From the NCBI RefSeq assembly GCF_000807775.2, contig NZ_CP047385.1:3968001-4032000 (forward strand): 64,000 bases of DNA. Reading direction: 5' to 3'. The stretch comes from Pandoraea fibrosis. Its GTDB lineage: Bacteria; Pseudomonadota; Gammaproteobacteria; Burkholderiales; Burkholderiaceae. A program made the translations under genes and the position numbers. The notes beneath the pieces were generated by a model that did not search any database, was not told the origin of the DNA, and saw only the letters and a list, made by a program, of their open reading frames with translations. This document shows, piece by piece, positions 16,319 to 29,637 of this stretch (the first letter of the stretch is position 1; every line of letters starts with the position of its first letter).

Positions 16319-17332
16319 TCATGCCGTCGCGAACGACGCCTCGTCGTCCCGCTCGGAAAACGCGCCCGCACGCAACTGTGCGCGCGCTTCTTCGAACGCG
16401 CCAATGCCCGCCTTCAGGCGCTTCGGATCGGATAGCACCCGACGCCATCCGCGAGCGCCCGGCACGCCGCGATACAGGCCGAGCGCATGACGCGTAATCG
16501 CGCCAAGATACCGGCCCTTCTCCACTTGCCCCGCTGCGTAAGCGATCAACGCGTCCTCCACCTCCTCGCGCGATTTCACCGGTGACGTGTCGCCGTAGAA
16601 GCGTGCGTCGACTTCGGCCAGTACATACGGGTTGTGATACGCCTCACGGCCCAGCATCACACCGTCGACGTACTGCAAATGCTGTTCGACTTCATCGAGC
16701 GTCTTCACACCGCCGTTGATCAGGATCTCAAGCTGCGGGAAAACTTGCTTCAGGCGATAGGCGTAGTCGTACTTGAGCGGCGGAATCTCGCGATTCTCCT
16801 TCGGGCTCAGTCCTTTCAGAATGGCATTGCGCGCATGCACGATAAACGTTGTGCAACCGGCTTCAGCGATTTGGCCGACGAAGTCCTCAACGAACGAGAA
16901 CGACTCCACATCATCGATCCCGATGCGATGCTTGACCGTGACCGGCACCTGCACCACATCGCGCATCGCTTTCACACAGTCGGCCACCAACGCCGGCTCG
17001 GCCATGAGACAGGCGCCGAACGCACCACGCTGCACGCGCTCCGACGGACAACCGCAATTCAGGTTGATCTCGTCGTACCCCCACTGCTCGCCGAGCTTCG
17101 CCGCGCGCGCGAGATCCTGCGGCTCGCTGCCGCCCAGTTGCAACGCCACGGGATGCTCCACGGCGTCGAAGTCGAGATGGCGCGCCACGTCCCCATGCAG
17201 CAGCGCACCGGTCGTGACCATCTCGGTATACAGCCACGTGTGACGCGAAAGCTGACGATGAAAGACGCGACAGTTCGAATCGGTCCAATCCATCATCGGC
17301 GCCACGCTGACGCGGCGGGGAGGTAAATTCAT
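16319..17332 (-). CDS. dusA: tRNA-dihydrouridine synthase A
   Basis: The 337-residue FMN enzyme reduces U20/20a in tRNA D-loops with NADPH. The start VSVAPMMDWTD, the catalytic-cysteine block NCGCPSERVQRGAFGACLM, the VKHRIGID strand and INGGVKTLDEV near the C-terminus identify DusA. The start is ATG 17332, since the base triplet before it is TTG. The first three codons (ATG AAT TTA) use A/T-rich codons and lie on the outer side of the integration core, so they were probably donated by the integrated element. Its upstream region is now element DNA. Confidence 0.96.
   Translation of the reverse strand: MNLPPRRVSVAPMMDWTDSNCRVFHRQLSRHTWLYTEMVTTGALLHGDVARHLDFDAVEHPVALQLGGSEPQDLARAAKLGEQWGYDEINLNCGCPSERVQRGAFGACLMAEPALVADCVKAMRDVVQVPVTVKHRIGIDDVESFSFVEDFVGQIAEAGCTTFIVHARNAILKGLSPKENREIPPLKYDYAYRLKQVFPQLEILINGGVKTLDEVEQHLQYVDGVMLGREAYHNPYVLAEVDARFYGDTSPVKSREEVEDALIAYAAGQVEKGRYLGAITRHALGLYRGVPGARGWRRVLSDPKRLKAGIGAFEEARAQLRAGAFSERDDEASFATA
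17284..17332. repeat. attL: left direct repeat of the dusA-integrated element
   Basis: This 49-bp stretch, covering the first ~16 codons of dusA, recurs at 29568-29616 with 44 of 49 positions identical. The identical 20-bp core is ACGCTGACGCGGCGGGGAGG (17304-17323). Integration at the dusA 5' end is a known habit of a large class of tyrosine-integrase elements. Confidence 0.93.
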
Positions 17333-17414
17333 CAAAAATCTCTTACAAAACAGTCGATTACAGCAAAAAGCGTAGTGCCAGATTTCCCAATTTTAGCCCC
17401 GATTTTCGCTCGTT

Positions 17415-17462
17415 TTAGCACCCAAGTGCTACGGTGTAGCATCGAAAAACGCCATGTAGCAC
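17415..17462. promoter_or_regulatory. Candidate integrase arm-binding repeats, left end
   Basis: GTGCTAC occurs at 17426-17432 and its complement GTAGCAC at 17456-17462. One-mismatch copies lie at 17415-17421 (TTAGCAC) and 17436-17442 (GTAGCAT). The same heptamer is found twice near the right end, as expected for arm-type sites of a tyrosine recombinase. They lie between attL and the integrase start and may also control int and dusA transcription. Confidence 0.5.
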
Positions 17463-17474
17463 CGACGAAAACCT

Positions 17475-18560
17475 ATGGGAACAATCACAGTTCGGGAACG
17501 AAAGGACAAAAGTATAGGGTATACCGCACAGATCCGCCTGAAGCGCGGCGGACGGGTGGCCTACACCGAGGCGAAGACGTTTGACCGCAGGCAGGCTGCG
17601 GCGGCGTGGATCGTCAAGAGGGAGAAGGAACTGGCGCGTCCGGGGGCGATGGAAGCCGCAGTGCAGACGGACCCGCTATTTAGTGAGGTGATTGATAAGT
17701 ATGTCCGCGAATCCATCAAGATCATCGGGCGAACGAAGGCTCAGGTACTAAATGCCGTCGCCCGCGCACCAATCGGGGAAAAGCGTTGCAGCGAACTCGG
17801 AAGTACCGACTACGTTGACTTCGCCAAGAGCCTAGACGTCCTTCCGCAGACCGCGAGCAACTATATGTCACACATCGGGGCAGTCGTGAACGTCGCTCGT
17901 CCCGCGTGGGGCTATCCGTTGTCCGAGCAAGCGTTGAAAGATGCCCGACGAGTCCTCTCTCACCTCGGCCACACCGGTAAGTCGGTCAAAAGGGAACGAC
18001 GCGTAAGCTTTTCCGAGTTGGATCTGCTGCTCGAACATTTTGTAGGGATTCGTAAGCGGCATCCGAATAGCGTTCCGATGCAATACATCGTGCCGTTCGC
18101 GATCTTCTCGACGCGACGCCAAGAGGAGATCGTCACGATCAAGTGGTCGAACTTGGACAGGGATGGCTCGCGGATACTAGTACGGGACATGAAGCATCCA
18201 GGGCAAAAGATCGGCAACGATGTCTGGTGCGACCTTCCCCCGGAAGCAATCCGCATTCTGTCGGTGATACCGCGACGCGAAGGAGAAGACCGAATCCTCC
18301 CCCACACCACCGACGCCGTCAGCGCAGCATTCACACGCGCCTGCCAGTTTCTTCAAATTCCGGATCTGAGATTTCATGACCTGCGCCACGAAGGTACTAG
18401 CTGGCTGTTCGAGCAAGGCCTATCGATACCTCGCGTGGCAGCCGTCACCGGGCACCGGAGCTGGACAAGCCTAAAGCGGTACACGCATATCCGCCAAACG
18501 GGCAATCGATTCGCCGACTGGCCGTGGCTTGCGAGACTAGCCCCGGCGATGAACGCATGA
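17475..18560 (+). CDS. int: Tyrosine-type site-specific integrase
   Basis: The 361-residue recombinase has an N-terminal arm-binding region (~1-55, RKDKSIGYTAQIRLKRGG, a beta-sheet fold), a core-binding domain (~68-165) and a catalytic domain with the active-site set visible. R214 is in STRRQEEIVTIKW, K240 in RDMKHPG, H301xxR304 in FHDLRHEG, H327 in TGHRS and the nucleophile Y336 in LKRYTHI. All key residues are present, so it should be active. It reads inward from attL, 150 bases from the dusA start, and should integrate and excise the element at dusA. Confidence 0.94.
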   Translation: MGTITVRERKDKSIGYTAQIRLKRGGRVAYTEAKTFDRRQAAAAWIVKREKELARPGAMEAAVQTDPLFSEVIDKYVRESIKIIGRTKAQVLNAVARAPIGEKRCSELGSTDYVDFAKSLDVLPQTASNYMSHIGAVVNVARPAWGYPLSEQALKDARRVLSHLGHTGKSVKRERRVSFSELDLLLEHFVGIRKRHPNSVPMQYIVPFAIFSTRRQEEIVTIKWSNLDRDGSRILVRDMKHPGQKIGNDVWCDLPPEAIRILSVIPRREGEDRILPHTTDAVSAAFTRACQFLQIPDLRFHDLRHEGTSWLFEQGLSIPRVAAVTGHRSWTSLKRYTHIRQTGNRFADWPWLARLAPAMNA

Positions 18561-18942
18561 CTCAGCAAGCACCTGAGCGTGACAAAGCGCAGCACCAAGA
18601 TTTGACTCGTAAGCTATTAACCTTGGGTGGGGGGGGAGGCTCGTGGGGTAAGGAGTTGCCGAAGGGGAGCAGACTATTTTGGGGTATTACAGCCCGAGGA
18701 TAAGTCGTTGATTTTATAGTGAATGAATTTGAGCGATAGTAGTAGGCGTGGTGCGAAATTGAGTCGAAATGATCGGCATCTCGATGGTGGTTCTCGACCC
18801 GTTTCTGCAGTAGCACGCCGCACCAAGTGAGTGGCTGCCTTTTCAGGCTCAAAGGCCATCGCCCATATCAAATGTTCGAGTTCAAATTTCGATGTAATAA
18901 TGCGCTAAATATTCCCACCGAAAACCAATTTGGACGGCGAAC
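18561..18942. other. AT-rich gap between integrase and SIR2 genes
   Basis: I see no gene here. There is a G-rich run (GGGTGGGGGGGGAGG) near 18626 and AT-rich sequence before the SIR2 start, which probably holds the promoter of the defence pair, but no confident -35/-10 pair could be chosen. Confidence 0.35.
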
Positions 18943-19980
18943 TTGGAGCTTGGTCAACTAAAAATGCTGCTTCAGCAGCACTTTACTGATGGACTGGTAA
19001 CCATCGTCGGTTCTGGTTTGTCATGCGCGGAGGGGCTTCCAGGCATGGGCGAGCTTGCACATTACCTCCAAGTTAACATCGAGGCCGATTTGTCGGATGA
19101 CGACAAGAATCACTGGACCCAACTGTCGCCCTTGATCACGGCAACCGGACTGGAAGCCGCACTACTATCTAAACCGCCGACGCCTACGCTTGAAACTGCC
19201 ATTGTCGCGAAAACGGTCGAATTAATCGCGCAGCGTGAACGTGACATAGTAGCTGAGGTATTCACTAAGGCGCGCACCCTCCGTTTCACTCGTCTTTTGA
19301 AACACCTTCTTAAGCCAACTACGGGAGTGCCGGTTGTCACCACCAACTACGATCGACTGCTGGAGGTCGCGGCGGAGGAGGCTGGCCTCGGTGCGGACAC
19401 ACTGTTTGTAGGTCAATTCGCCGGACATTTGGACGAACAGGAAAGTAAATTAAGTTTCTGCCGCGAGGTCACCCTAAAGGGAAAAAGTGTTCAATATCGC
19501 TATCGGCAAAAGGTGAATGTCTTCAAGCCACATGGTAGCCTCGACTGGTACCATCGTGATGGAAAGCCTGTGCGCTACGCCGGCGATCTCCACTTACAGC
19601 GTTTAATTATCACACCGGGCTTGAATAAATTTCGGAGCGGTTATGAGAGTCCATTTGATCGGCACCGCGAGCGCGCAAATGGGGCGATCGACAAGGCGAG
19701 CCGCTTTCTTGTGTTGGGCTATGGATTTAACGATGATCACCTTGAAACGCATCTAACGCCGCGAATCAAAAGTGGGATTCCGACTCTTTTGCTGACACAC
19801 TCGCTTTCGGACAATGCTCTGAAGCTCGCTCGTGACCACGCCAACGTCATCGCGATCCAGCACGGGACTATCGGTGGGGTGTCCGGCTCGTCGGTTTTCG
19901 TCAACAAGATTGAGGGTTTCGTACCAGTGCTTGCTCTCTGGGATCTCAACTCATTCATTTCAGAGGTACTTGAACCGTGA
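18943..19980 (+). CDS. SIR2-family NADase of a SIR2-HerA anti-phage pair
   Basis: The 345-residue SIR2-like domain protein has the NAD-binding start IVGSGLSCAEGLPGM (~21-35), TTNYDRLLE with the catalytic Asn (~135), KPHGSLDW with the catalytic His (~198), and VLGYGFNDDHLE near the end of the fold. In defence systems such domains degrade NAD+ when phage infection is sensed. The gene overlaps the HerA gene by four bases (GTGA), so the two proteins are translationally coupled. The start is TTG 18943; an ATG at 18964 is the alternative. Composition is more AT-rich than the core. Confidence 0.92.
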   Translation: MELGQLKMLLQQHFTDGLVTIVGSGLSCAEGLPGMGELAHYLQVNIEADLSDDDKNHWTQLSPLITATGLEAALLSKPPTPTLETAIVAKTVELIAQRERDIVAEVFTKARTLRFTRLLKHLLKPTTGVPVVTTNYDRLLEVAAEEAGLGADTLFVGQFAGHLDEQESKLSFCREVTLKGKSVQYRYRQKVNVFKPHGSLDWYHRDGKPVRYAGDLHLQRLIITPGLNKFRSGYESPFDRHRERANGAIDKASRFLVLGYGFNDDHLETHLTPRIKSGIPTLLLTHSLSDNALKLARDHANVIAIQHGTIGGVSGSSVFVNKIEGFVPVLALWDLNSFISEVLEP

Positions 19981-21722
19981 CAGATGCCGCTCTCCAGTTT
20001 ACTGACGACGATAGAATCGGTCGGGTCGCGTCGGTCGACACCAGTCGCGTAGCAATAGATGTAACTAACTCAATCCTTCTCACCCGCATTGGAATCGGTC
20101 AACTCATCGCCATTCGTGGTACGACGGAGCGGGAGTACCTCATTGCCATGACCGAGCGTGTGACGCGAAGCATGCGTGATGAGTTGCCAAATTCTGACGA
20201 TTCTGGAGAAGATGGCCAGCTTCTAGAAGCGGTTGCGGATGATTTGATCCAAGCCGTTCTTATTGGCACCTTTCGCACGATCGAGGGCGAGAAGGTAAAC
20301 ACCTTCAAGCGCGGCGCGGACAGTTTTCCCCAGATTGACCGAGAGTGTTATGTCATCGAGGGCGGAAATCTTCAGCGCTTCATGGGCATCCTGGGTGCGG
20401 GCTTCGCGGAGGAGGAGCGGCTGAAACTCGGCACATTTGTCGCTGACCGGTCGGCTAATGCGATCGCGAGCGGCGACAAGTTCTTTCAACGGCACGCGGC
20501 CATCCTAGGGAGTACCGGTTCGGGCAAGAGTTGGGCTGTGGCACTTATCTTGGAACGAGCCGCAAAACTGAAGTTTCCGAACATCATTGTCTTTGACATG
20601 CACGGCGAGTACGCGCCACTTGCCGATGAAGCAATCGGTGGCTTTGCGCAACGATTTCGCATCGCCGGACCTGGTGACTTGGACAAGCCTGGCGATGATG
20701 TGTTGTTTTTGCCATATTGGCTTCTGAATCGCGACGAGATGCTCTCGATGATCCTCGACAGAAGCGATCAGAATGCACCGAATCAGGCCTCGCGGTTCAC
20801 ACTTCACGTCCGTACCCTCAAGGGAGAGACACTCGATACCGAGAAGCGGGATGTGGTTAAGAAGACATTCACCGTAGACTCCCCGATCCCCTATGACATA
20901 AAAAAGCTCGTAAAGCTTCTGGAGACCGACAATACGACCAAGGGCGTGGGAAAAACCGGGCCCGTGAAGGGCGAGTGGGAGGACAAGCTTACCCGCTTCC
21001 TGTCTCGACTGGAGACGAAGCTCGACGATCGTCGGTATGGATTCATGTTTGCACCGCCGCTAGCGGCAATGGCATACGATTGGTTGGCCAACCAAGTCCT
21101 CCGGCTTTTGACATCAAACGGTGGATCTGGGATCAAGGTCGTTGATTTTTCAGAGGTGCCCGCCGACGTCCTTCCCGTCGTGACCGGCACTTTGGCGCGA
21201 TTACTCTATGACGTCCAATTCTGGATGCGCTCGGGCAAGCGGACACCGGTTACGCTGCTCTGTGACGAAGCCCATCTTTATCTGCCCGTGCGGGAAGATG
21301 CTGACGCGGTACAGCGGCAAGCGCTCGGCTCGTTTGAACGGATCGCCAAGGAAGGCCGTAAGTACGGTTTTTCGCTATTAGTGGTTAGTCAACGCCCTGC
21401 CGACGTCAGCCGAACGATTCTAAGCCAGTGTAATAATTTCCTGGCGTTACGGTTGACGAATGAGACGGACCAAGGCGTAATTAAACGGCTTATGCCGGAT
21501 TCACTGGCGGGCTTGACCAGCATTCTCCCGCTTCTCGACACAGGAGAAGCGTTGCTCTTAGGTGATGCGGTGCTGCTGCCGACGCGCATAAAGCTCGATA
21601 TCCCAAAGATCACGCCGGACAGCGCGACAAGGGATTTTTGGAGGGAATGGGGAACGCAAGAGCCGCAGGAAGATGCAATCAAGTTGGCCATCGAAAGCCT
21701 TCGAAGCCAGGCGAGGATTTAG
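19977..21722 (+). CDS. HerA-like DNA translocase/ATPase, partner of SIR2
   Basis: The 581-residue protein has an N-terminal HAS-barrel-like region (~10-120), then a HerA/FtsK-type RecA fold with Walker A GSTGSGKS (~178-185), FDMHGEY after it, Walker B LLCDEAHLYLP (~427) and the sensor VVSQRPADVSRTILSQCNN. HerA proteins form hexameric rings. In SIR2-HerA systems the ring assembles with SIR2 into a large complex that depletes NAD+ and can act on DNA. The start is GTG 19977, overlapping the SIR2 stop. All ATPase motifs are intact, so the pair looks functional. Confidence 0.93.
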   Translation: MTDAALQFTDDDRIGRVASVDTSRVAIDVTNSILLTRIGIGQLIAIRGTTEREYLIAMTERVTRSMRDELPNSDDSGEDGQLLEAVADDLIQAVLIGTFRTIEGEKVNTFKRGADSFPQIDRECYVIEGGNLQRFMGILGAGFAEEERLKLGTFVADRSANAIASGDKFFQRHAAILGSTGSGKSWAVALILERAAKLKFPNIIVFDMHGEYAPLADEAIGGFAQRFRIAGPGDLDKPGDDVLFLPYWLLNRDEMLSMILDRSDQNAPNQASRFTLHVRTLKGETLDTEKRDVVKKTFTVDSPIPYDIKKLVKLLETDNTTKGVGKTGPVKGEWEDKLTRFLSRLETKLDDRRYGFMFAPPLAAMAYDWLANQVLRLLTSNGGSGIKVVDFSEVPADVLPVVTGTLARLLYDVQFWMRSGKRTPVTLLCDEAHLYLPVREDADAVQRQALGSFERIAKEGRKYGFSLLVVSQRPADVSRTILSQCNNFLALRLTNETDQGVIKRLMPDSLAGLTSILPLLDTGEALLLGDAVLLPTRIKLDIPKITPDSATRDFWREWGTQEPQEDAIKLAIESLRSQARI

Positions 21723-22361
21723 TGCTCGAGTGAGGAAATCAGAAACCAATACGAATAACAAGAGATTGGCGAAAATTTTCCAAGCTCGTGGTTCTCTGTT
21801 AGAGGAGCGAGATTTATTTCTTCTACAGAGAATTGGATACGAAGGCTTCGATCATAGGATGCTTGCGCATTTGGCCTGTCGACGTATTGAGATCGGGTCA
21901 CTCCGATCTTGAAGTTTGAGGACGAGTATCTGCTAATGGCTATCTGGAAAGAGACGATAGTAGTCTGCGCCAAAGCCAGATATTCGCGACAGGTACATTT
22001 GTGCCGTGCGCAAGTCCGGTTCGGCCAATAGGTTGGCAGGTGTAAAGGCGAGCGGACGTCCGTTGCCCGGGGCGAACCCGATATGTCCGCGAGAGCGCTG
22101 GCCAATCACTGTTTATGGCCGACTTCAGCCGTTAGTGAGCGTCTGCCATCGACCCATCGCGGATGGGTCGATAAACATGAGAACAACGGCAGCGTTCCGA
22201 GCGAACGGACAGACTCACGCCTAAATTGGGGTACGGGCCGGCCACGCGCCTCAATCGGATTTCGAGCAGGTGTGTGGTTTACACCTCCCCACACGCGGGG
22301 CATACGTTGCACTGCCTAGGCCGAGCGTCACCGAAAAAAAATGGAAAGTATCGCGCAGGAA
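21723..22361. other. Gene-poor stretch after HerA with an 11-bp hairpin
   Basis: No gene can be supported here. A short frame runs to ~21912 directly after herA, but it has no ribosome site. At 22148-22172 ATCGACCCATC and GATGGGTCGAT form a perfect 11-bp stem with a 3-nt loop and no U-tract. The rest looks like decayed sequence leading to the insertion-sequence boundary. Confidence 0.4.
22354..22361. repeat. Target-site duplication, left copy (CGCAGGAA)
   Basis: CGCAGGAA here is repeated at 24459-24466 on the other side of the IS256-family element. Eight bases is the usual duplication length for that family. Confidence 0.75.
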
Positions 22362-22457
22362 GGGGGTGTCAGAATTTCCGTGTTCAAGGCGGGTTGAGAA
22401 TTACACGGACGGTCGAACGGTAATGCCCCCATTTTCCACGGCCGCGAGAAGTAGAAA

Positions 22458-23258
22458 CTAAGCGGCCATGGCCAGCCGCTGCTTCGGGGTAAAGCCGCCC
22501 AATGCCATATTTGGGCGCTCGTGATTGTAAGTCCACATCCAGTCGGCCGCTGCCTGCCGAACCTGCTCCAGGTCTTCCCACAGATATTGCGAGAGCCATT
22601 CGTATCGCGCGGTCCGATTGAACCGTTCGATGTACGCGTTCTGTTGCGGCTTGCCCGGCTCAATGTATTCCAGCCGTATACCTAGCTTCTGCGTCCAAGT
22701 CACGATGGCTATGCTCAGGTATTCTGGGGCGTTGTCACAACGAATTACCTTCGGCTTGCCACGCCATTCCATGTGCTGCTCCAGCGTGCGAATCACCCGC
22801 TCGGACGGCAGCGAGAAATCCACCTCAATGCCCAGCGCCTCGCGGTTGAAATCATCAATCACGTTCAGCGTCCGGATGCTGCGCCCGTCAACGAGCTGGT
22901 CATGCATGAAGTCCATTGACCACACTTCGTTGATGGCATGCGGCACCGACAGCGGCTGCGGCGTTTCGCGCACCAAGCGTTTCTTCGGCTTGATGCGCAG
23001 GTTCAGCTCCAGCTCCCGATAAATCCGGTAGATGCGCTTGTGGTTCCACCCGAATCCCTTCACGTTACGCAAGTAGTAATAGCACAGCAGAAAGCCCCAG
23101 TTGCGATGACAGCCCGTGATACGCATCAGCCAGTCTGCAATCTCTTCGTTCTCCGTGTTCAATTTCGCCTCGTATCGGTAGCACGACTCGCTGATGCCGA
23201 ACACTGTGCACGCCACACGAATTGACACGCGGCGCTGTTGCACAACCTGCTTTGCCAT
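22458..23258 (-). CDS. IS3-family transposase, OrfB (DDE catalytic part)
   Basis: The 266-residue rve-type integrase domain begins with the HTH_21 region ([35 protein letters not shown]). It contains the DDE triad, with D in WSMDFMHD, D in RCDNAPEY and E in [12 protein letters not shown]. Translation is expected as an OrfAB fusion by -1 slippage at the A7G run at 23285-23292 (minus strand); the orfB frame is open back to that point. Motifs are complete, so this IS may be active. Confidence 0.93.
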
Positions 23259-23278
23259 CTCGCGCCGGCGAGATGGCT

Positions 23279-23545
23279 TCAGAACTTTTTTTGCAGCGCC
23301 TCCGAGGCAATCTCAGCCTTGAGCTTCTCCTCGATGTACATCTTGCGCAGCCGGGCATTCTCCGCCTCGAGCTCCTTCATGCGCGACATCATCGACGCGT
23401 CCATCCCGCCGTACTTCGAGCGCCATTTGTAGAACGTTGCCGAACTGATGCCCAGTTCCCGGCATAGCTCCGGCACCGCAAGCCCAGCCTCCGCGCGCTT
23501 GAGCGCCTCCAATATCTGGCTGTCTGTGAATCTCGACTTCTTCAT
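23279..23545 (-). CDS. IS3-family transposase, OrfA (HTH part)
   Basis: The 88-residue OrfA has the IS3 helix-turn-helix ([36 protein letters not shown]) and a leucine-zipper-like end ([19 protein letters not shown]). Its last codons contain AAAAAAAG, the slippery sequence that lets ribosomes shift into orfB. Confidence 0.93.
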
Positions 23546-23574
23546 CTGCAGAACTCCCTCTTAACGAGAAAATT

Positions 23575-24411
23575 CTACTTCTCCCAGCGCCGGTTTGCGG
23601 GGGGCATTACCCAGGTTTGCAGCGTTGTTGCCGGAAATACGGCAGCCAGCGCCTCGGGCATGCCCTTGAGGCCATCGGTCACCGCAATCAGAATGTCGTT
23701 CACGCCGCGCGTTTTCAGATCGTTAAACACCTTCATCCAGAACTTGGCGCCTTCGGTGTTTTCGATCCACAGGCCCAGGATGTCGCGCGTACCGTCGGGC
23801 AGGATGCCCAGCGCCAGATATACCGCCTTGTTGCGTACGACGGCATCCTCGCGAATCTTCACACGCAGCGCGTCGAAGAACACGACCGGATACATCGGTT
23901 CGAGCGGCCGGGACTGCCAGGCGGTGACTTCACTCATCACCTCGTCGGTGACCGAGCTGATGAACTCGGGCGAGACTTCCGTGCCGTACTGTTCCTGTAC
24001 GAAGCCCTGAATTTCACGAACGGTCATGCCACGGGCATACATGGCGATGATCTTGTCATCAAAGCCCGTGAAGCGTCGTCCGTGTTTGGGGATCAACAGC
24101 GGCTCGAAGCTGCCGTCGCGGTCACGCGGCACCTCGATGCGGATCGGGCCGTCCTCTGTCAGGACCGTCTTGGCACCACGGCCGTTGCGCTGGTTCGTCA
24201 CGCTGGCCGGTTTGGCCGTGCCCGACGGGTAGCCGAGATGGTGATTCATCTCGCCGCCCAGCGCACGCTCGATCAACGCTTTCTTGAAGGCCAGCGATGC
24301 GGCATTGATGGCGTCGGCCGTCATCGGGCCGTTGCCGAACTGCTCAAGCAGTTCGGCGGGGATCGTCGGCAGCTCTGCCGGTGGGGTTTTCGGTTTGCGA
24401 GGCATCGTCAC
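23575..24411 (-). pseudogene. IS256-family transposase, C-terminus lost
   Basis: About 270 residues of a Mutator/IS256-type transposase remain: TADAINAASLAFKKALIERA, a conserved EMNHHLGYPSG start, PRDRDGSFEPLLIPKHGRR, YARGMTVREIQ, and the first catalytic region YPVVFFDALRVKIRED. The normal sequence stops after TTLQTW; the following ten residues come from the inserted IS3 end. The last catalytic Glu region is missing, so it cannot transpose by itself. Confidence 0.88.
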
Positions 24412-24458
24412 TCCTTGGCGACATGTTATGCCTCAAACACGAAATTAATGACAGCCCC

Positions 24459-24466
24459 CGCAGGAA
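24459..24466. repeat. Target-site duplication, right copy (CGCAGGAA)
   Basis: This pairs with 22354-22361. Removing the insertion would rejoin AT-rich sequence just downstream of the HNH gene stop. Confidence 0.75.
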
Positions 24467-24496
24467 TACAACTCGCATTCCGCATAAGGCTACTGA

Positions 24497-25168
24497 CTAC
24501 CATACTTCACAACGAGTATGCATTATGTTCGCGGAGAACTGCCTTGCCCTTATCATTGCCCTATCATCACAGGGGGATACTCGTAGCAAAGAAAGTTCCA
24601 TCCCTTGAGTCAAACCCGCCAATTGATATAGCTCCGAGTCTATTTCGTTCTTTAGTTCTTGATTGCAAGGCTCACACAAGGTGACTAAATTCCTAGAATT
24701 GGTTTCCCCTCCTAGCGAGAAAGGCAGAACATGCTGAAGGGTCAAGTTCTCAGGGGCGTGGCAGCGCAAACAACGCCTGCCGTCTCTATCAAGAATCTGC
24801 TCCCTTGCCTGCCCGCGATAACTGCGACTTAGCATTTTCGGGGATGCAATATCTCTATCGGTGAATGAACCAAATGGTGATTTTATACATTGACGACCAC
24901 TCAACCATTGACAGATTGATCTCTCAGCATAATCACAATCCACCAAGGCCCACCCATGAATGCATAGCCAATTTCGATAGCTTTCATCCGAATTTACCTG
25001 CAATGCCTGCTGACCTAACTCTGCGAGCGCAGTAACAAACTGACCTTCGTACACCTCTGACGGAATCCTGCGCTCGAACCCTCTGTCTCCCGGTTTGCTT
25101 CCATGCGTATAAACACTGAAGTAGGCGTAGCCACCGCAAACCTGCTTCAAATCAAATGCGTAAGGCAT
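24497..25168 (-). CDS. HNH endonuclease-domain protein
   Basis: The 223-residue protein has an unassigned N-terminal part (~1-115, with FDLKQVCGGYAYFSVY) and a C-terminal HNH domain at ~135-180. CLRCHAPENLTLQHV supplies the first Cys pair and the His, GGETNSRNLVTLCEPCNQ the Asn and second Cys pair. This is a zinc-stabilised HNH nuclease fold. The start is ATG 25168, behind a run of seven G; longer in-frame extensions to 25288 are less likely. It is transcribed toward the insertion sequences and opposite to SIR2-HerA. A role in defence or in element mobility is possible but unproven. Confidence 0.8.
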   Translation of the reverse strand: MPYAFDLKQVCGGYAYFSVYTHGSKPGDRGFERRIPSEVYEGQFVTALAELGQQALQVNSDESYRNWLCIHGWALVDCDYAERSICQWLSGRQCIKSPFGSFTDRDIASPKMLSRSYRGQAREQILDRDGRRCLRCHAPENLTLQHVLPFSLGGETNSRNLVTLCEPCNQELKNEIDSELYQLAGLTQGMELSLLRVSPCDDRAMIRARQFSANIMHTRCEVW

Positions 25169-25723
25169 TTCCCCCCCAAGGCTGTTCGATTTATGTTTAA
25201 AATAAATTTTTGGAGCGGAGCGTATCGACAAGAATAGACTCCGGGCAGCAATATGCCGCCGTGCCGATGGGCGATCTCCGCCTACCACGACTAACGCTCA
25301 CCAAGGGTCCCTCGTTGCCTTCGTACTGGCGCGCCTCGTCCTTGTCGTCACCATCTTTGATGACCATCGGCGTTACGGCACTAGGCTACCGTCAACTGTA
25401 CGATGTTTCAAATGATGGCGTGCCGGACGACCAAATGCCTCAGGGGCGGTCGAAGAGGGATCATTCACTTCTTCCTCGGCTTGCGGAATTTCGTTCTCGG
25501 TCGAGAACGGAATCGCGTCGCTGCACCGTCTGTTTGGGCAAGCTCTTATATCTCCCCTCGCTAGTCTCCTCTGAGCCTCCCGGCGACCGCAAGCCGGATA
25601 GGCGTAGAAGCGATTGTCTACATTGGATACACCCTCCAGCTACGGACTCAACATGAGATTGCCGGCGTACAATCCGCGCCCATACCAACCGGGAGATACC
25701 GGCAAGTCCGCAGGAGGAGTTTT
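25169..25723. other. Gap without a convincing gene
   Basis: Open frames exist on both strands (plus 25210-25656, minus 25461-25742) but their translations are low-complexity Ser/Arg/Pro-rich, without ribosome sites or recognisable motifs. An AGGAGGAG at 25712-25719 precedes a 12-codon frame at 25724-25762 that overlaps the next gene's start and may be a leader cistron. Confidence 0.35.
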
Positions 25724-25746
25724 GATGCACGACGAGGAGCACTCAC

Positions 25747-26211
25747 TTGTCTCCCGCAACTAAATGGGTATTGGTTGAGGCGTTGCTCCCACTCTTCGGA
25801 GCAAGTTTGATTTATGGATTTCTTGGAGTAGCAAGATGGCTAGTCACGCCAGCAACCAAGCGAGTTAAATGGGCTTGGGGCGAAGCTTTCGACGCGATGG
25901 GCTGGTTGTATGGCGGCGTAATTCTTGCGGTTCAAGCTGGTATTCGAGGTTATGAGGCCGCTGCCACCGGGCCACATTTCGTCGTTGTCTGGATTTGCTT
26001 TATCGCTGCGATCGCATGCGGCATCCTTTTATCCGCGGCCATGATGGCGCGCGGGGAGGATCACGAATGGAAGCCGCCAGCAGTCATGCTAGTATCCACA
26101 AGCTTCTTGATGATCGTGATTGTGGTCACGGCACACACGGTCCAGGAGGTGACATTAGCCAACGGAGTAGATGATGTCTGCCACACCGACGCGAAAAAGA
26201 CTTGCAGCTAG
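25747..26211 (+). CDS. Small four-helix membrane protein of the element
   Basis: The 154-residue protein has about four hydrophobic helices: LVEALLPLFGASLIYGFLG (~8-26), MGWLYGGVILAVQAGI (~50-66), FVVVWICFIAAIACGILLSA (~77-97) and VMLVSTSFLMIVIVVTA (~112-129). The proposed start is TTG 25747 with GAGGAG eight bases upstream. A 12-codon frame starting at ATG 25724 behind AGGAGG ends inside the first codons and could couple translation. It overlaps the next gene by 41 bases. No family recognised. Confidence 0.6.
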   Translation: MSPATKWVLVEALLPLFGASLIYGFLGVARWLVTPATKRVKWAWGEAFDAMGWLYGGVILAVQAGIRGYEAAATGPHFVVVWICFIAAIACGILLSAAMMARGEDHEWKPPAVMLVSTSFLMIVIVVTAHTVQEVTLANGVDDVCHTDAKKTCS

Positions 26212-26446
26212 TGCATCGAAGGCGCGTTCTTTCAAGAAAATGCGTTTTGCGCACGGCCGCAACATCCCCACGAGTCAGCACCGCTCGCAAGCCGCTAGCG
26301 GGATGATTAAGTTCGCGTCCACACTCAGTGGTGGAACTGCGGTTGGACTTGCTGTGGCGCTTCTTACGCCCAGCGTCATCGTTACGATAGGCGCAATGAT
26401 CGCAGGGCTCATCGGTAGCGGGCTATTAGTCAAACGATTCGGATAG
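26171..26446 (+). CDS. Small basic protein with C-terminal membrane helices
   Basis: The 91-residue protein (or 90 from the second ATG) has a strongly basic N-terminal half (RKRLAASASKARSFKKMRF) and a glycine-rich hydrophobic C-terminal half (TAVGLAVALLTPSVIVTIGAMIAGLIGSG) ending LVKRFG. GGAG at 26163-26166 precedes the ATG. It overlaps the end of the upstream membrane-protein gene, indicating one transcript, which ends at the terminator 20 bases downstream. The layout recalls small ssDNA-phage structural or assembly proteins, but the topology does not match a standard coat protein and no function is assigned. Confidence 0.6.
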   Translation: MMSATPTRKRLAASASKARSFKKMRFAHGRNIPTSQHRSQAASGMIKFASTLSGGTAVGLAVALLTPSVIVTIGAMIAGLIGSGLLVKRFG

Positions 26447-26468
26447 AATCGTTTGTCCACACATCGCA

Positions 26469-26494
26469 ACGGAGCCTTTCGGCTCCGTTTTCGT
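26469..26494 (+). terminator. Rho-independent terminator after the small membrane-protein genes
   Basis: ACGGAGCC (26469-26476) and GGCTCCGT (26481-26488) form an 8-bp stem with a TTTC loop, followed by TTTTCGTTT. Confidence 0.88.
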
Positions 26495-26640
26495 TTCTAG
26501 CGGCACATCGCGATTAACTTCCCCGTCGACCAAGGAGAATCCCTATTGAGGCATCGGAATGTTCTGAATCGCAATGAGTGACCTAGAATGCGACTCCGAA
26601 CGCGTGGTGCCCACAACGTCAGCTCGATAATCTTGTTCCC

Positions 26641-26861
26641 GTCGCGCCCCAAACGCGACCGGGTTTGACGACCCGAACGGTCTTATCTCGGGCACACGGC
26701 CGCGAAGTTTGCGGCTTTCGTGTGCGCTGTGCCACGCCTCGATGTCTACGGGTGGGCCTGGATTGGGACACCTTCGGGTGTGCCGCCTAATCCGAGTGAC
26801 CAGCGGTTCGTCAACCTAGTCCAGTGCCCGCCCACCCCTGCGCAATGCAGCGGGTGGCGGG
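26641..26861. other. Cluster of five GC-rich hairpins, candidate replication/packaging region or structured RNA
   Basis: Five non-overlapping stems fall in 221 bases. H1 is GTCGCG/CGCGAC (26641-26659). H2 is CGGGT/ACCCG (26660-26675). H3 is GCACACG-GCCGC/GCGGC-CGTGTGC with a 3-nt bulge (26692-26725). H4 is GGATT/AATCC enclosing ACACC-TTCG-GGTGT (26760-26793). H5 has 14 pairs with two single-base bulges around a GCAAT loop (26827-26861). No coding frame explains the region. It lies between a terminator and a small gene, upstream of the HUH Rep. Filamentous phages carry a comparable hairpin row as origin and packaging signal. A structured RNA is the alternative. Confidence 0.6.
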
Positions 26862-26893
26862 AATCGCAAATTGGCTAGTTAGAGGTGCCCCGC

Positions 26894-27115
26894 ATGACGC
26901 TTCATCTTCCCGCAGCTTCCTTAGTCCACGCTTCCGTCGACAGGCTCAACACTCTCTCCGAACGTATCCTTGCGCTGACGATGTGCACCAACACAGACGC
27001 CGGCAAGGAGATGCCCCATCGGTTCCTGCTCGCGATCTTCGAAGAGCTTGGCGAAATGACCGTCGAACTCGTCTGTGAATGTCACAAGTTGAAGGCTGAT
27101 TGTCTCGACGCGTAG
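26894..27115 (+). CDS. Small hypothetical protein after the hairpin cluster
   Basis: The 73-residue protein starts MTLHLPAASLVHASVDRLN. GAGG at 26882-26885 is eight bases before ATG 26894, and an in-frame GTG at 26885 is less likely. It is predicted helical with an acidic middle (FLLAIFEELGEMTVELVCE) and three or four Cys, without a clear zinc pattern. It is 32 bases after the fifth hairpin. No family recognised. Confidence 0.5.
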   Translation: MTLHLPAASLVHASVDRLNTLSERILALTMCTNTDAGKEMPHRFLLAIFEELGEMTVELVCECHKLKADCLDA

Positions 27116-27850
27116 TCGTCCGCCAGCAGTTCATCTGACTCTGCCAACGGCATGGCCCCCCGCATATTTCGGCTGTCTCTACAGCATCGCGCTGCCCTCA
27201 TGTGCGCTCGCTGTTTCAATTTCACGCCAAGCCTTTCGCCATGCCCGCCATCAATTCCCTCCCCGCCGCTCCAATCGGAATTTCCCCATATACGGTGCGT
27301 TCGCGCGCTGCTTTAATAGCCCCACGTTTGCGCCACGCTTCCATACGTGGCTTCCGATTGTATTCAGTGCATAGCGTCACCACTTCTGGCTACAAACGCC
27401 GGAAGTCGATTCGCGCTCAAGAGCGTTCGCTGGGGCAATTTAACGAGAGCTCGGCCAAGATCCCATCGCGGGCAGTGTCCATCGTCGTACTGCGGCCATC
27501 ATCCAAAATTCCCTATCTCACCCAGCAGGTAACACCGTCGTAACCCAACCTCATCCGTTGGTTCGTTCGTTGACATTTGTACTTCCTTAAGCCGGTCGTC
27601 TTTCAGGACATCTAGCGTCGGGAGTGTCAGCGCCGTACCCGAAGAGAGGGTTGCGTATGCGTGCTTGCGGAGTCCGGGCGGTTATCGCGCGGCTCAGCGC
27701 GGCCCGCGTGACCGAGCAGCGGGTAATACCTCGCGCGTTCGCCAAGACCTCATTCCTTTGCATTCCGGCTCTCATGCCGAACCTTTCGGCCGTCAATGGC
27801 GCGCTATCGCTCGTCTTGTACGCCAAGGGTTACGGACAGAAGTTTGGAAG
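27116..27850. other. Non-coding or unrecognised stretch upstream of the origin-like repeats
   Basis: Plus-strand frames at 27202-27543 and 27624-27911 are open, but their products are Arg/Ser/Ala-rich without motifs, and the second ends inside the large inverted repeat. I could not support a gene here. The spacing between the hairpin cluster and the Rep gene suggests regulatory or replication DNA. Confidence 0.3.
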
Positions 27851-27902
27851 CACTGCGAGCGCCCGCCGCCCGCAGGGGCGAGGACGGCGGGCGCTCGCAG
27901 TG
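27851..27902. repeat. Perfect 18-bp inverted repeat
   Basis: CACTGCGAGCGCCCGCCG (27851-27868) and its exact complement (27885-27902) flank a 16-nt G/C-rich loop. It has no U-tract and no gene ends at it, so it is not an ordinary terminator. It lies 136 bases before the Rep start. Confidence 0.9.
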
Positions 27903-27910
27903 CGCCCATA

Positions 27911-27942
27911 GACTTGTACTACTAATACTTAACGTACAAGTC
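27911..27942. other. Candidate double-strand (nick) origin for Rep
   Basis: GACTTGTAC (27911-27919) and GTACAAGTC (27934-27942) form a perfect 9-bp stem, presenting a 14-nt A/T-rich loop TACTAATACTTAAC. A short stem with an A/T-rich loop just upstream of an HUH Rep gene is the classic layout of rolling-circle nick sites. The loop resembles, but does not match, the TAATATTAC nick sequence of circular ssDNA replicons. Neither nicking nor the exact site can be shown from sequence. Confidence 0.5.
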
Positions 27943-28037
27943 ATCGGAATCGCAGGCCCGATCAGGCACGACAGGAACACCGACTCCCCAAGCAATCAAC
28001 GCGCGGGGCACCCTGGTCAGAGAGATAGAGGTTTGCG

Positions 28038-28838
28038 ATGAATGACACCAACGTTTTGAATTACTCGCCCTTCCGCCGTGAATGGATCGTCCGTCTCCGT
28101 GCATTCGAAGATGGTCAAGTGGAAGCTTATGCAATTCGCTTTGACCGGTACATGAAGACGCAGTCCCTTCATCTGATGCCGAGAGCCAAACGTGGCGAGT
28201 CGGATTCCACTGAGGCGAACAAACTAGTTGCCGCGAAGCGTGCAAAACAGCAAGTTCGGCTGCGCTGCAAGGCGATTGGTGCCGATCGAATGATCACTCT
28301 CACGTATCGCGAGAACGTGCTCGACAAGGAGAGGATCAAGCGCGATTTCGATTCGCTGCGACGCCTCTTGGGTAAGGTTCAGAACTTCCAATATGTCGCT
28401 GTAGCTGAACGGCAGAAGCGAGGAGCTTGGCATCTGCACATCGCCGTCAAAGGGCGGCAGAACTATCGCGTCTTGCGGGAGCTGTGGCTTCGTGTGGTCG
28501 GCGAGGGAAATGGGAACGTCGACGTGCGCAATCCGAATCGCGAAGCCGGCCTACGTCACAAGATCGCCAGTTACATCGGAAAGTACATCGTCAAGAATTT
28601 CGATGAGCATAAGCTCAACGAGAAGCGGTATTGGGCAAGTCGTGGCATCAAGGTTCCGGAGGCGGAGACGGTCAAGCACGTTCTTGAAGATTCACCCGCC
28701 GATGCCATCGTCGCTGCGTACAAAGCCGTCCTCGCGACTGGAGCAACGCTTGAGGATCATCAGCAGTGTTGGGATCAGGATGCGGGCTACTTCTGGATGG
28801 CGACCAAAGAACGGCCAACGTCCTCCAGCAAGGCGTGA
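28038..28838 (+). CDS. rep: HUH-type rolling-circle replication initiator (Rep, inovirus ORF2/gpII-like)
   Basis: The 266-residue protein shows the three Rep motifs in order: motif 1 MITLTYREN (~85-93), the metal-binding HUH motif in WHLHIAV (H132-x-H134), and the catalytic region SYIGKYIVKNF with Tyr179 and Tyr183 spaced as Y-x3-Y. Such enzymes nick one strand at an origin, remain bound to the 5' end, and drive rolling-circle replication. Its size and the QKRGAWHLH context resemble the filamentous-phage replication protein family. It lies ~95 bases after the origin-like hairpin and heads an operon with two small genes. Confidence 0.85.
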   Translation: MNDTNVLNYSPFRREWIVRLRAFEDGQVEAYAIRFDRYMKTQSLHLMPRAKRGESDSTEANKLVAAKRAKQQVRLRCKAIGADRMITLTYRENVLDKERIKRDFDSLRRLLGKVQNFQYVAVAERQKRGAWHLHIAVKGRQNYRVLRELWLRVVGEGNGNVDVRNPNREAGLRHKIASYIGKYIVKNFDEHKLNEKRYWASRGIKVPEAETVKHVLEDSPADAIVAAYKAVLATGATLEDHQQCWDQDAGYFWMATKERPTSSSKA

Positions 28839-28848
28839 GGGGGTATCG

Positions 28849-29010
28849 ATGAGAAATCTGACCTCGATGCTTCTCGAACCGGAAGCAGTCGTCGCGCGGA
28901 CCAGGAGCCGCATACACGCTGACACGTTCGCCGGCTTTCATGCTGACAACATGCCGCCGATCGCAATCTGGCCCTGGATGGGCAAGCCAAGCAAAGGGGC
29001 TATCCGATGA
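28849..29010 (+). CDS. 53-residue hypothetical protein between Rep and PrtN genes
   Basis: It starts MRNLTSMLLEPEAVVARTRS, ten bases after the rep stop, with GAGGGGG as ribosome site. It contains HADTFAGFHADNMPP and ends WMGKPSKGAIR. Its stop overlaps the next start (ATGA), so it is part of the rep-prtN operon. Such short linker proteins are common before PrtN-family genes, but I know no function. Confidence 0.6.
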   Translation: MRNLTSMLLEPEAVVARTRSRIHADTFAGFHADNMPPIAIWPWMGKPSKGAIR

Positions 29011-29267
29011 ACACCACTTTTCTTCTTATGGCTCAGTACGGTGCCGTCGCAGTAGTCCCTTTAGAAGCCGTGTGCCGAGACTACTTCTCCCACCTGAGCA
29101 CGGAAAAACTGACGCGAAAGATTGGCGCAGGCGATATCGCGCTTCCGCTAGTTCGAATGGAAGGCTCTCAGAAAAGCGCGAAGGGGGTACATGTGGAGGA
29201 TCTTGCGAAATACATCGACGAACGACGCGCGGCGGCGGTAAAAGAGTGCCACCAACTCTGTCACTGA
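29007..29267 (+). CDS. PrtN-family (pyocin activator-like) regulator
   Basis: The 86-residue protein carries the PrtN signature over its full length: NTTFLLMAQYGAVAVVPLE, VCRDYFSHLSTEKLTRKI, GDIALPLVRMEGSQKSAKG and the terminal VEDLAKYIDERRAAA. PrtN itself activates pyocin genes. Relatives on integrative elements probably act as transcriptional regulators or as helpers of excision. It is translationally coupled to the preceding gene by ATGA and sits nearest to attR, at the opposite end from the integrase. Confidence 0.85.
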   Translation: MNTTFLLMAQYGAVAVVPLEAVCRDYFSHLSTEKLTRKIGAGDIALPLVRMEGSQKSAKGVHVEDLAKYIDERRAAAVKECHQLCH

Positions 29268-29313
29268 ATCGTAAGCCTCAATCGCAGTAACAAGAGGCTC
29301 GATGTGCAGCCTG

Positions 29314-29357
29314 CACCCCGAAAGTTGGATGCAAATCCAATCTTTGGGGTGTTTTTT
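29314..29357 (+). terminator. Strong terminator of the rep-prtN operon
   Basis: CACCCC-GAAAG-TTGGAT pairs with ATCCAA-TCTTT-GGGGTG around a GCAA loop (17 positions, one mismatch, two G-U), followed by six T. It insulates the element from the host genes beyond attR. Confidence 0.92.
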
Positions 29358-29490
29358 ATGGCCATCTCGCCACGGAATACACGCCACTCGCCGGCCGACG
29401 CACGCGGCTGCTCACAGCCCGGAACCGCCTCGCCTGATGCGCACCCACTCATCCACAACAGACCTCGACCACGGTACGCCCGGCAAAAAA

Positions 29491-29508
29491 GTGCTACATC
29501 CGTGCTAC
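29491..29508. promoter_or_regulatory. Candidate integrase arm-binding repeats, right end
   Basis: Two direct copies of GTGCTAC at 29491-29497 and 29502-29508 (11-bp period) match the heptamer copies next to attL. They lie 60 bases inside attR. Confidence 0.5.
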
Positions 29509-29559
29509 GCCGAACACCGCCATGCCCCAGAACGACCAAACGACGCGGGTTTTGCGCCC

Positions 29560-29616
29560 TCAAGCCATCCAATCCATCATCGGTGCGACGCTGACGCGGC
29601 GGGGAGGCAGGTTCAT
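29560..29616 (-). pseudogene. Duplicated 5' end of dusA at attR (18-codon stub)
   Basis: Read on the minus strand this gives MNLPPRRVSVAPMMDWMA and a stop. The first 16 residues equal intact DusA, with only synonymous differences in the DNA. The original host dusA ribosome site and promoter lie just right of it, so this stub may still be transcribed. Confidence 0.85.
29568..29616. repeat. attR: right direct repeat of the element
   Basis: It matches 17284-17332 at 44 of 49 positions, and the 20-bp core is at 29588-29607. The five differences are all silent in the dusA reading frame. Confidence 0.93.
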
Positions 29617-29637
29617 ACAAATTCCTCGGTACGGCAA

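Follow-up and report, generated by a model that had tools for sequence, protein, structure and literature searches.

The dusA island and its Rep

The window analysed here is a stretch of 64,000 nucleotides from Pandoraea fibrosis (positions 3,968,001 to 4,032,000 of contig NZ_CP047385.1; genome of 5.59 Mb in a single contig). It carries a 12.3 kb island enclosed by two 57-nt direct repeats from the 5' end of the host gene dusA (17284-17340 and 29568-29624, 86% identical, starts 12,284 bp apart), which is probably a defence-carrying satellite of filamentous phages (inoviruses). The original prediction, made from the sequence of the window, was a dusA-integrated element combining a tyrosine integrase, a SIR2-HerA defence pair and an HUH rolling-circle replication protein (Rep), and the repeats together with matches to PF00589, PADLOC models and PF23343 bear this out (Table 1). 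The integrase next to attL is indeed intact, as an open frame at 17475-18560 (PF00589). It is of the type found in dusA-specific islands (DAI) and is 55% identical to that of Burkholderia phage AH2, which the available text of PMC4482086 includes among phages with such integrases. The SIR2 and HerA genes are adjacent and both match PADLOC models; neither reaches the corresponding NCBIfam equivalog cut-off for anti-phage proteins. The predicted operon of Rep, a 53-aa open reading frame (ORF) and PrtN stands for Rep and PrtN (PF23343, PF11112), but its middle member is unconserved and corresponds to the broken-off start of a DUF4224 excisionase.

The Rep matches PF23343 (REP_ORF2-G2P, E = 5.8e-16) and phrog_3419 ('rolling circle DNA replication initiation', E = 1.4e-104), and residues H132, H134, Y179 and K182 are invariant in all rows of a 15-row alignment. 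Three further Rep loci are present in the same genome. Two of them, L006 and L007, are complete inovirus prophages with Reps 66% and 64% identical to that of the window; both carry genes for a single-stranded DNA (ssDNA)-binding protein, coat, a pIII-like protein, Zot, secretin, Rep, a DUF4224 excisionase and an integrase, and in L007 Zot matches PF05707 at 1.8e-28 and the secretin PF00263 at 3.3e-20. The third, L008, consists of Rep fragments only. An assignment as plasmid Rep was rejected, the best identity over most of the query being 40%, to two Cupriavidus records of 2.6 Mb; 17 records of the plasmid collection hold a distantly related Rep, and 15 of these cover less than 80% of the query. 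Named phage records gave six Rep matches at 26-34% identity, none covering 80%, and the intergenic region (IG) had no match in this collection. On these comparisons the window Rep is a filamentous-phage Rep. Relatives of Rep are not confined to unrelated plasmids, an outcome that would have spoken against the prediction, since it groups with complete Pandoraea inoviruses.

Table 1. Features of the dusA island and its borders in window coordinates
Position	Strand	Feature	Basis
16319..17335	-	DusA, host gene; 5' end is the attachment site	NCBIfam PRK11815, E 1.2e-165
17284..17340	.	attL, 57-nt direct repeat overlapping the first dusA codons	86% identical to 29568-29624
17475..18560	+	dusA-type tyrosine integrase, open frame	PF00589
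18943..19980	+	SIR2 defence protein, cargo	PADLOC SIR2, E 1.5e-153
19977..21722	+	HerA ATPase, cargo	PADLOC HerA, E 3.3e-234
22458..23545	-	IS3-family transposase, later insertion	NF033516, E 4.5e-65 for frame 22458-23258
23575..24411	-	Partial IS256-family transposase	NF033543, positions 1-215 of 338
24497..25288	-	HNH endonuclease, cargo	PF14279/PF01844
25747..26211	+	P154, small hydrophobic protein, in some sisters	92% in L039, pieces in L041, L046
26171..26446	+	P91, small protein, in some sisters	62-91% in L038, L039, L041, L046; partial in L040
26628..26679	+	Candidate a1/b1 target site of C4 RNA	RF03163, 34.5 bits, under cut-off 46.7
26744..26839	+	C4 antisense RNA	RF01695, 53.4 bits, cut-off 45
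26885..27115	+	P76, 76-aa core protein	Distant homologue in 11/21 Zot-bearing Pandoraea loci
27603..27726	+	Block A, non-coding, common to complete inoviruses; candidate packaging signal or minus-strand origin	
27845..27942	+	Block B, long hairpin and second stem-loop; candidate plus-strand origin	
28038..28838	+	HUH rolling-circle Rep, filamentous-phage type	PF23343, phrog_3419
28849..29010	+	53-aa ORF, apparent N-terminal stump of DUF4224 excisionase	Starts like DUF4224 frames of L037, L041
29007..29267	+	PrtN-type small protein, likely excisionase/activator	PF11112, E 1.2e-30; phrog_1300 'excisionase'
29568..29624	.	attR	Direct repeat pair with attL

Sister elements, missing coat genes and cargo

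A Rep search over 61 genomes gave matches in 25 and revealed ten more loci (L037-L046) whose Rep is 79-91% identical to that of the window over the aligned part. Together with the window island they make eleven elements in ten Pandoraea genomes, nine besides its own, with a common core composed of C4 RNA, P76, origin region and Rep, the latter truncated in two of them. Six elements (the window, L038, L039, L040, L043 and L046) carry the dusA integrase and PrtN, and five (L037, L041, L042, L044 and L045) the DUF4224-integrase pair of inovirus type. Both dusA repeats were found in L039, L040 and L043, at distances of 9.7, 12.2 and 13.0 kb (12.3 kb in the window); L038 measures about 9.4 kb on a second repeat of 17 nt, and the contig of L046 ends before its second repeat. 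In the other type, the three elements searched out of five are all flanked by tRNA-Ser(GGA) repeats (L041, 10.0 kb; L037, 12.4 kb; L044, 14.6 kb), the same tRNA beside which the inovirus L007 sits; no tRNA was found for L042 and L045. Furthermore, L037 lies in tandem with an inovirus remnant that, compared with L007, is 92% identical in Rep, 100% in DUF4224 and 98-99% in the integrase pieces. The prediction had been staked on related genomes with the same gene set between dusA repeats, and the core is indeed found at dusA in five sisters. The corresponding empty site, a single dusA repeat copy adjoining EamA, was recognized at L092; the same genome has a Zot-bearing inovirus by tRNA-His next to dusA, on the opposite side from the empty site.

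For the morphogenesis genes, profiles were built from complete Pandoraea inoviruses with 18-21 sequences per gene (21 for Zot; 18-19 each for coat, minor coat and ssDNA-binding protein) and used to scan twelve elements, the eleven plus the dusA element L080 (6.5 kb between repeats), the ends of L042 and L045 being set by estimate. The ssDNA-binding protein, major coat, pIII, TMp and Zot profiles found nothing in any of the twelve, in line with the predicted absence of a Zot-like coat-assembly gene, whereas the same profiles detected Zot in 72 of 80 viral Rep loci, 48 of which have less than 50% Rep identity. A weak secretin signal in nine of the twelve elements (E from 2e-8 to 1.4e-4) falls on secretin residues 491-514 in BLAST and is explained by read-through of the origin region (block A). 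The elements are thus without the Zot/pI-like ATPase and without the coat, minor coat and ssDNA-binding proteins of an autonomous inovirus.

Their variable cargo often appears to be defensive. Nineteen hand-picked cargo proteins of the sisters and L080 were scanned with PADLOC, ten of which match at 1e-3, and, judging PADLOC and Pfam results together, eight of the twelve elements carry clear defence-type cargo. Besides SIR2-HerA in the window, this cargo comprises an AriA-like ATPase in L037 (where many ATPase models match), NACHT with a sub-threshold Mrr in L038, TIR and SIR2-like proteins in L039, an NsnA/GmrSD-like protein in L042, the protease PDC-M35A in L043, SoFic and PD-Lambda-2_B-like proteins in L044, and NB-ARC with Schlafen in L046. 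The ORC-CDC6-like ATPase and phosphoesterase of L040 and the 5-hmdU DNA kinase domain of L041 are not counted among the clear defence cargo, and for L045 and L080 a single protein each was scanned, without a match. Complete inoviruses have similar cargo upstream of a P76-like gene: out of ten proteins, six gave strong PADLOC matches (DrmMII/MTase, AbiEii twice, LmuB, helicase and NERD-UvrD), two weak and two none. In L007 this slot (L007:16996-18552) holds a DNA cytosine methyltransferase gene, DrmMII-like.

Ten satellite Reps form one clade (support 100/100) on a stem of 0.61 changes per column. The two integration types are interleaved in the Rep tree, and well-supported branches force at least three changes between them. 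In the window, the beginning of the 53-aa ORF resembles the DUF4224 excisionase found in elements of the other type, and the gene is cut short ahead of PrtN; L043 has a similar stump. On this evidence integration modules have been swapped, and the 53-aa ORF is a scar. Median dN/dS is 0.073 for Rep (35 of 36 pairs used, dS near 1.5), 0.107 for P76 (36/36), 0.053 for PrtN (12 of 15 pairs) and 0.067 for the integrase (15/15). By these measures the satellite Reps are under purifying selection, and the satellites are a lasting mobile lineage, not a fresh deletion.

Four short elements, L088, L089, L094 and L098, carry a repressor, blocks A and B, DUF4224 and an integrase with no Rep match; in three of them (L089, L094 and L098), C4, a P76-like gene and the decayed gene of an ssDNA-binding protein are additionally present, and in L094 also AbiEii. 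All four resemble minimal satellites without a Rep. Other genera were covered by 69 genome loci retrieved with two exact peptide words, a search that misses relatives without those words. The only non-Pandoraea locus among them with Rep identity of at least 59% and no Zot profile match, L123 from Paraburkholderia, was rejected as a satellite: it keeps Rep, DUF4224 and integrase, and its upstream side is occupied by host genes and by what is, by eye, an IS21-like pair. L122, from Pandoraea, was likewise rejected, being by eye an inovirus interrupted by an insertion sequence (IS).

Within the window island, an IS3 copy abuts a truncated IS256 copy (22441-24411), one probably inserted into the other; the small IS3 frame 23279-23545 is called OrfA by position alone. 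P154 had no family match in PHROG and Pfam scans. Outside the island, 34630-34651 matches the attachment core over 22 nt at 91%.

The origin region and the C4-P76 unit

The gap between P76 and Rep comprises 0.9 kb of non-coding DNA and includes two blocks, A and B, that recur in complete inoviruses. Block A is 72-79% identical to L007 or L048 over 107-144 nt, two longer gapped alignments being lower, and the part of block B matched in inoviruses is about 27855-27940. Block B contains the strong hairpin predicted ahead of Rep (27845-27908, 27-nt arms), the segment 27840-27945 folding at z = -10, and a second stem-loop (27911-27942) whose loop holds CTTAAC. Of the inverted repeats and hairpin array that had been proposed, the hairpin before Rep stands, and the inverted-repeat region to the left contains the C4 antisense RNA (26744-26839). 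Among the 61 genomes, block A occurs in 18 and block B in 21, all in Pandoraea; beyond them, block A also matches Burkholderia and Paraburkholderia inovirus loci. All 21 Zot-bearing Pandoraea loci have block B and 18 have block A (a 23-nt core only in L103). A motif pair of block A is present in 43 stretches of viral contigs, 40 of them with Zot and the other three of 2.8-5.9 kb. The IMG/VR contig L265 (7,118 bases) carries this pair.

In the L007 and L048 types, which include most complete Pandoraea inoviruses, the blocks lie beneath the C-terminal end of the secretin gene. We compared four-fold third-base identity in 20-residue bins of 18 secretin genes, which are related and partly near copies, so that the values give a contrast between bins and the rows are not independent. 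Identity is 0.74 in the first bin (0-19), 0.38-0.63 over residues 20-459 and 0.60 at 460-479; it reaches 0.84 and 0.83 at 480-519, over block A, then 0.66 at 520-539, 0.82 at 540-559 and 0.95 at the end, over block B. Because four-fold identity rises over them, blocks A and B behave in inovirus secretin genes as constrained DNA elements. The satellite has in common with its potential helpers a putative cis-acting region that is constrained there as DNA, besides a rolling-circle Rep and origin of the helper's type. Across ten satellites, conservation of the region in 40-nt bins peaks over block A (0.94-0.97 at 27596-27715) and is 0.90-0.94 over block B. A fold for block A was considered and rejected (covariation at one of 26 consensus pairs, no excess stability), and we call it a conserved sequence block. 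Block B is a candidate plus-strand origin, and block A a candidate packaging signal or minus-strand origin. According to the available text of PMC4403547, a plasmid can be packaged by a helper once it carries the intergenic region of the Ff phages, where both origins and the packaging signal lie. The intergenic region of the satellites has the same design. Block A is a testable candidate for an inovirus packaging signal, as a stretch of DNA that is under constraint within a protein-coding gene of the helper and that the satellite retains by itself.

Upstream of P76, the C4 RNA scores above the RF01695 cut-off. A survey of 32 Pandoraea genomes places C4 at 43-90 nt ahead of P76 at 23 of 25 satellite-type places, including all eleven elements, and at 18 of 19 inovirus-type places. 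The unit is not present in all complete inoviruses, a P76-like gene being found in 11 of the 21 Zot-bearing loci, and 38 of the 79 C4 hits (three below cut-off) have no P76 within 250 nt. One Pandoraea genome in many contigs, G015, has 26 C4 hits (three below cut-off), 25 of them without P76 within 250 nt. In six sequences inspected by eye, the C4 segment and its upstream target are complementary over at least six bases though they differ between elements. In phages P1 and P7, C4 RNAs act as repressors of an antirepressor operon. We propose from its position that P76 could be a C4-controlled antirepressor-type protein, parallel to RstC of RS1.

A probable satellite of filamentous phages, rival readings and known systems

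Collectively, the data make a satellite of filamentous phages the likely identity of the island: a natural phagemid, integrated in the chromosome and carrying defence genes, that descends from a Pandoraea inovirus. Its ancestor would have lost the whole block of ssDNA-binding, coat, assembly (Zot) and secretin genes, whereas Rep, the C4-P76 unit and an origin region containing both blocks were retained and a slot is used for defence genes. The dusA integrase, probably with PrtN as excisionase, would excise the island as a circle, and its own Rep would nick at block B, producing single strands. A co-infecting or resident inovirus could then provide ssDNA-binding, coat and export proteins, its assembly machinery accepting the satellite strand because block A, with B, would be the same signal as the helper's. 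In a new cell, the integrase would insert the island into dusA and SIR2-HerA would protect the host. A plausible helper is present in the same genome, which holds two complete inoviruses, one with blocks A and B. The earlier suggestion of a satellite or relative of ssDNA phages agrees with a Rep that groups with Pandoraea inoviruses and an origin region common to both, and the guess of mobilisation by a helper phage is supported as far as sequence can test it.

What is seen in the sequence is gene content, homology, common blocks with their constraint, attachment repeats and the module swap, from which we infer excision, circle replication, packaging and transfer, as well as defence activity, the role of PrtN and the action of P76. 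Several observations weigh on the other side. The placement of the satellite clade among Pandoraea inovirus Reps is weakly supported (87/78 and 92/79). Rep is truncated in two of the eleven elements (L045 and L046), the former also lacking block B, and L080 is a dusA element that lost Rep. Thirteen further loci (L294-L306) are remnants, so many integrated copies decay: the satellite-type P76 frame is open, some with P91/P154, at dusA, near tRNA-Ser or elsewhere, and these loci contain no Rep and no block match except one chance-level match of 35 nt. Block A is absent from the inovirus L006 of the same genome and from L047 and L104, it folds alone in the window no better than shuffles (z = +0.57), and it could be a minus-strand origin rather than a packaging signal. 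Finally, Zot is found in five of ten carrier genomes and in nine of 22 non-carriers (Fisher p = 0.71); co-occurrence therefore lends no support.

This lack of association with Zot-bearing genomes would suit an island domesticated from an inovirus, which maybe excises and replicates like a plasmid, as a circle, via its own Rep without being packaged, spreads by natural transformation, rare capture or vertical descent, and uses block A as a minus-strand origin only. The remnants at 13 loci, the repeated loss or truncation of Rep and the existence of 17 plasmid records with distantly related Rep point the same way. On the other hand, one lineage occupies dusA in some genomes and tRNA-Ser in others, its integration modules having been exchanged, which points to repeated transfer, and block A is kept in the four elements without a Rep match (L088, L089, L094 and L098), to which a minus-strand origin of their own would bring little benefit unless a helper were present. 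We thus regard domestication as unlikely, though it is the strongest of the rivals. Transfer by a tailed helper that packages the island, Rep only raising its copy number, is far less probable still. The helpers of P4-like satellites are tailed dsDNA phages, and AlpA and primase-helicase are markers of phage-inducible chromosomal islands (PICI) and P4-like satellites. Neither marker appeared when eight element genes were scanned with PHROG and nine with Pfam (cos sites were not searched), terminase labels arose only via the HerA ATPase fold and the HNH domain, and five of the eleven elements have an inovirus-type integrase, the conserved part being the inovirus part. In favour of a tailed helper, integrases of the type seen in the window are common among dusA prophages; the 20 records listed of 164 matching phage records are of 39-66 kb, a size from which we take them to be tailed phages, and 48 of 94 published dusA islands are prophages in the available text of PMC4482086. 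As for a chance juxtaposition of a dusA island and an unrelated inovirus remnant, with the right end acquired separately, the two IS copies inside the island could suggest such an artefact; yet the same arrangement recurs at dusA in five sisters, the core occurs with another integrase in five more, and Rep, P76, PrtN and integrase all have low dN/dS. This explanation is already contradicted by the sister elements and scarcely deserves credence.

More tentatively, and with somewhat less than even confidence, the satellite reading could be extended to a layered society of filamentous phages in Pandoraea. It would comprise complete inoviruses with defence cargo, Rep-bearing coat-less satellites acting as natural phagemids of about 10-15 kb with whole defence systems, and Rep-less minimal satellites with blocks A and B and an integrase, relying on a helper for replication and coat. 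The C4-P76 unit, which recurs in the satellites, in most elements without Rep and in roughly half of the complete inoviruses, would wake the helper through P76, an antirepressor-type protein comparable to RstC of RS1. The virions of filamentous phages, whose length follows that of their DNA, might then be a general carrier of anti-phage defence islands unseen by inovirus searches keyed on Zot.

Filamentous satellites are already known as a kind, represented by RS1, TLCphi and pDolos. RS1 is not known to carry coat genes and occurs in tandem with CTXphi. Like the Pandoraea elements, this CTXphi satellite of Vibrio cholerae has replication of its helper's type and an antirepressor, RstC (PMC4439123, PMC11389934, in the text available), but it is grouped with elements exploiting host Xer recombination (PMC4439123), whereas the Pandoraea elements have a distinct Rep clade, their own integrase, a defence slot and the C4 RNA-P76 unit. 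TLCphi of V. cholerae is a satellite phage with its own rolling-circle initiator; in contrast to ours, this initiator resembles those of E. coli filamentous phages (pfam05144, pfam05155), integration is by XerD (from a title cited there), and defence cargo is not mentioned in the available part of the same source (PMC4439123). pDolos of Shewanella is likewise described, in the accessible text, as a satellite of an inovirus (PMC11389934, PMC13230959), but is a plasmid, whereas the Pandoraea island integrates. The dusA-specific islands share the site in the dusA 5' end, the integrase and, in 60 of 94 islands, a prtN homologue, and excision of some was shown by PCR, as far as the available text goes (PMC4482086); the main text of that paper does not contain the terms 'filamentous', 'inovir', 'zot', 'satellite', 'rolling circle' or 'SIR2'. 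P4-like and other tailed-phage satellites resemble our elements in having a variable slot for antiviral systems (PMC9122126, PMC11389934, from the portions available).

Defence-bearing phage satellites are thus known mainly with tailed helpers, and filamentous satellites from few cases, in the literature available to us. Among the matches listed from titles and abstract openings of the open-licence literature, with subscription papers and preprints outside the search, no integrating defence-carrying filamentous satellite was found. Within that literature, and as far as these searches show, what is new is that the elements bring their own integrase, in modules that can be swapped, that they have a defence slot and a C4-P76 unit, and that they form a family across the genus. 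Inovirus searches anchored on the pI/Zot gene, as described in the available text of PMC6813254, would miss such satellites. If the satellite reading is true, a family of integrating, defence-bearing satellites of filamentous phages would give immune systems a further way of spreading that leaves the host cell alive.

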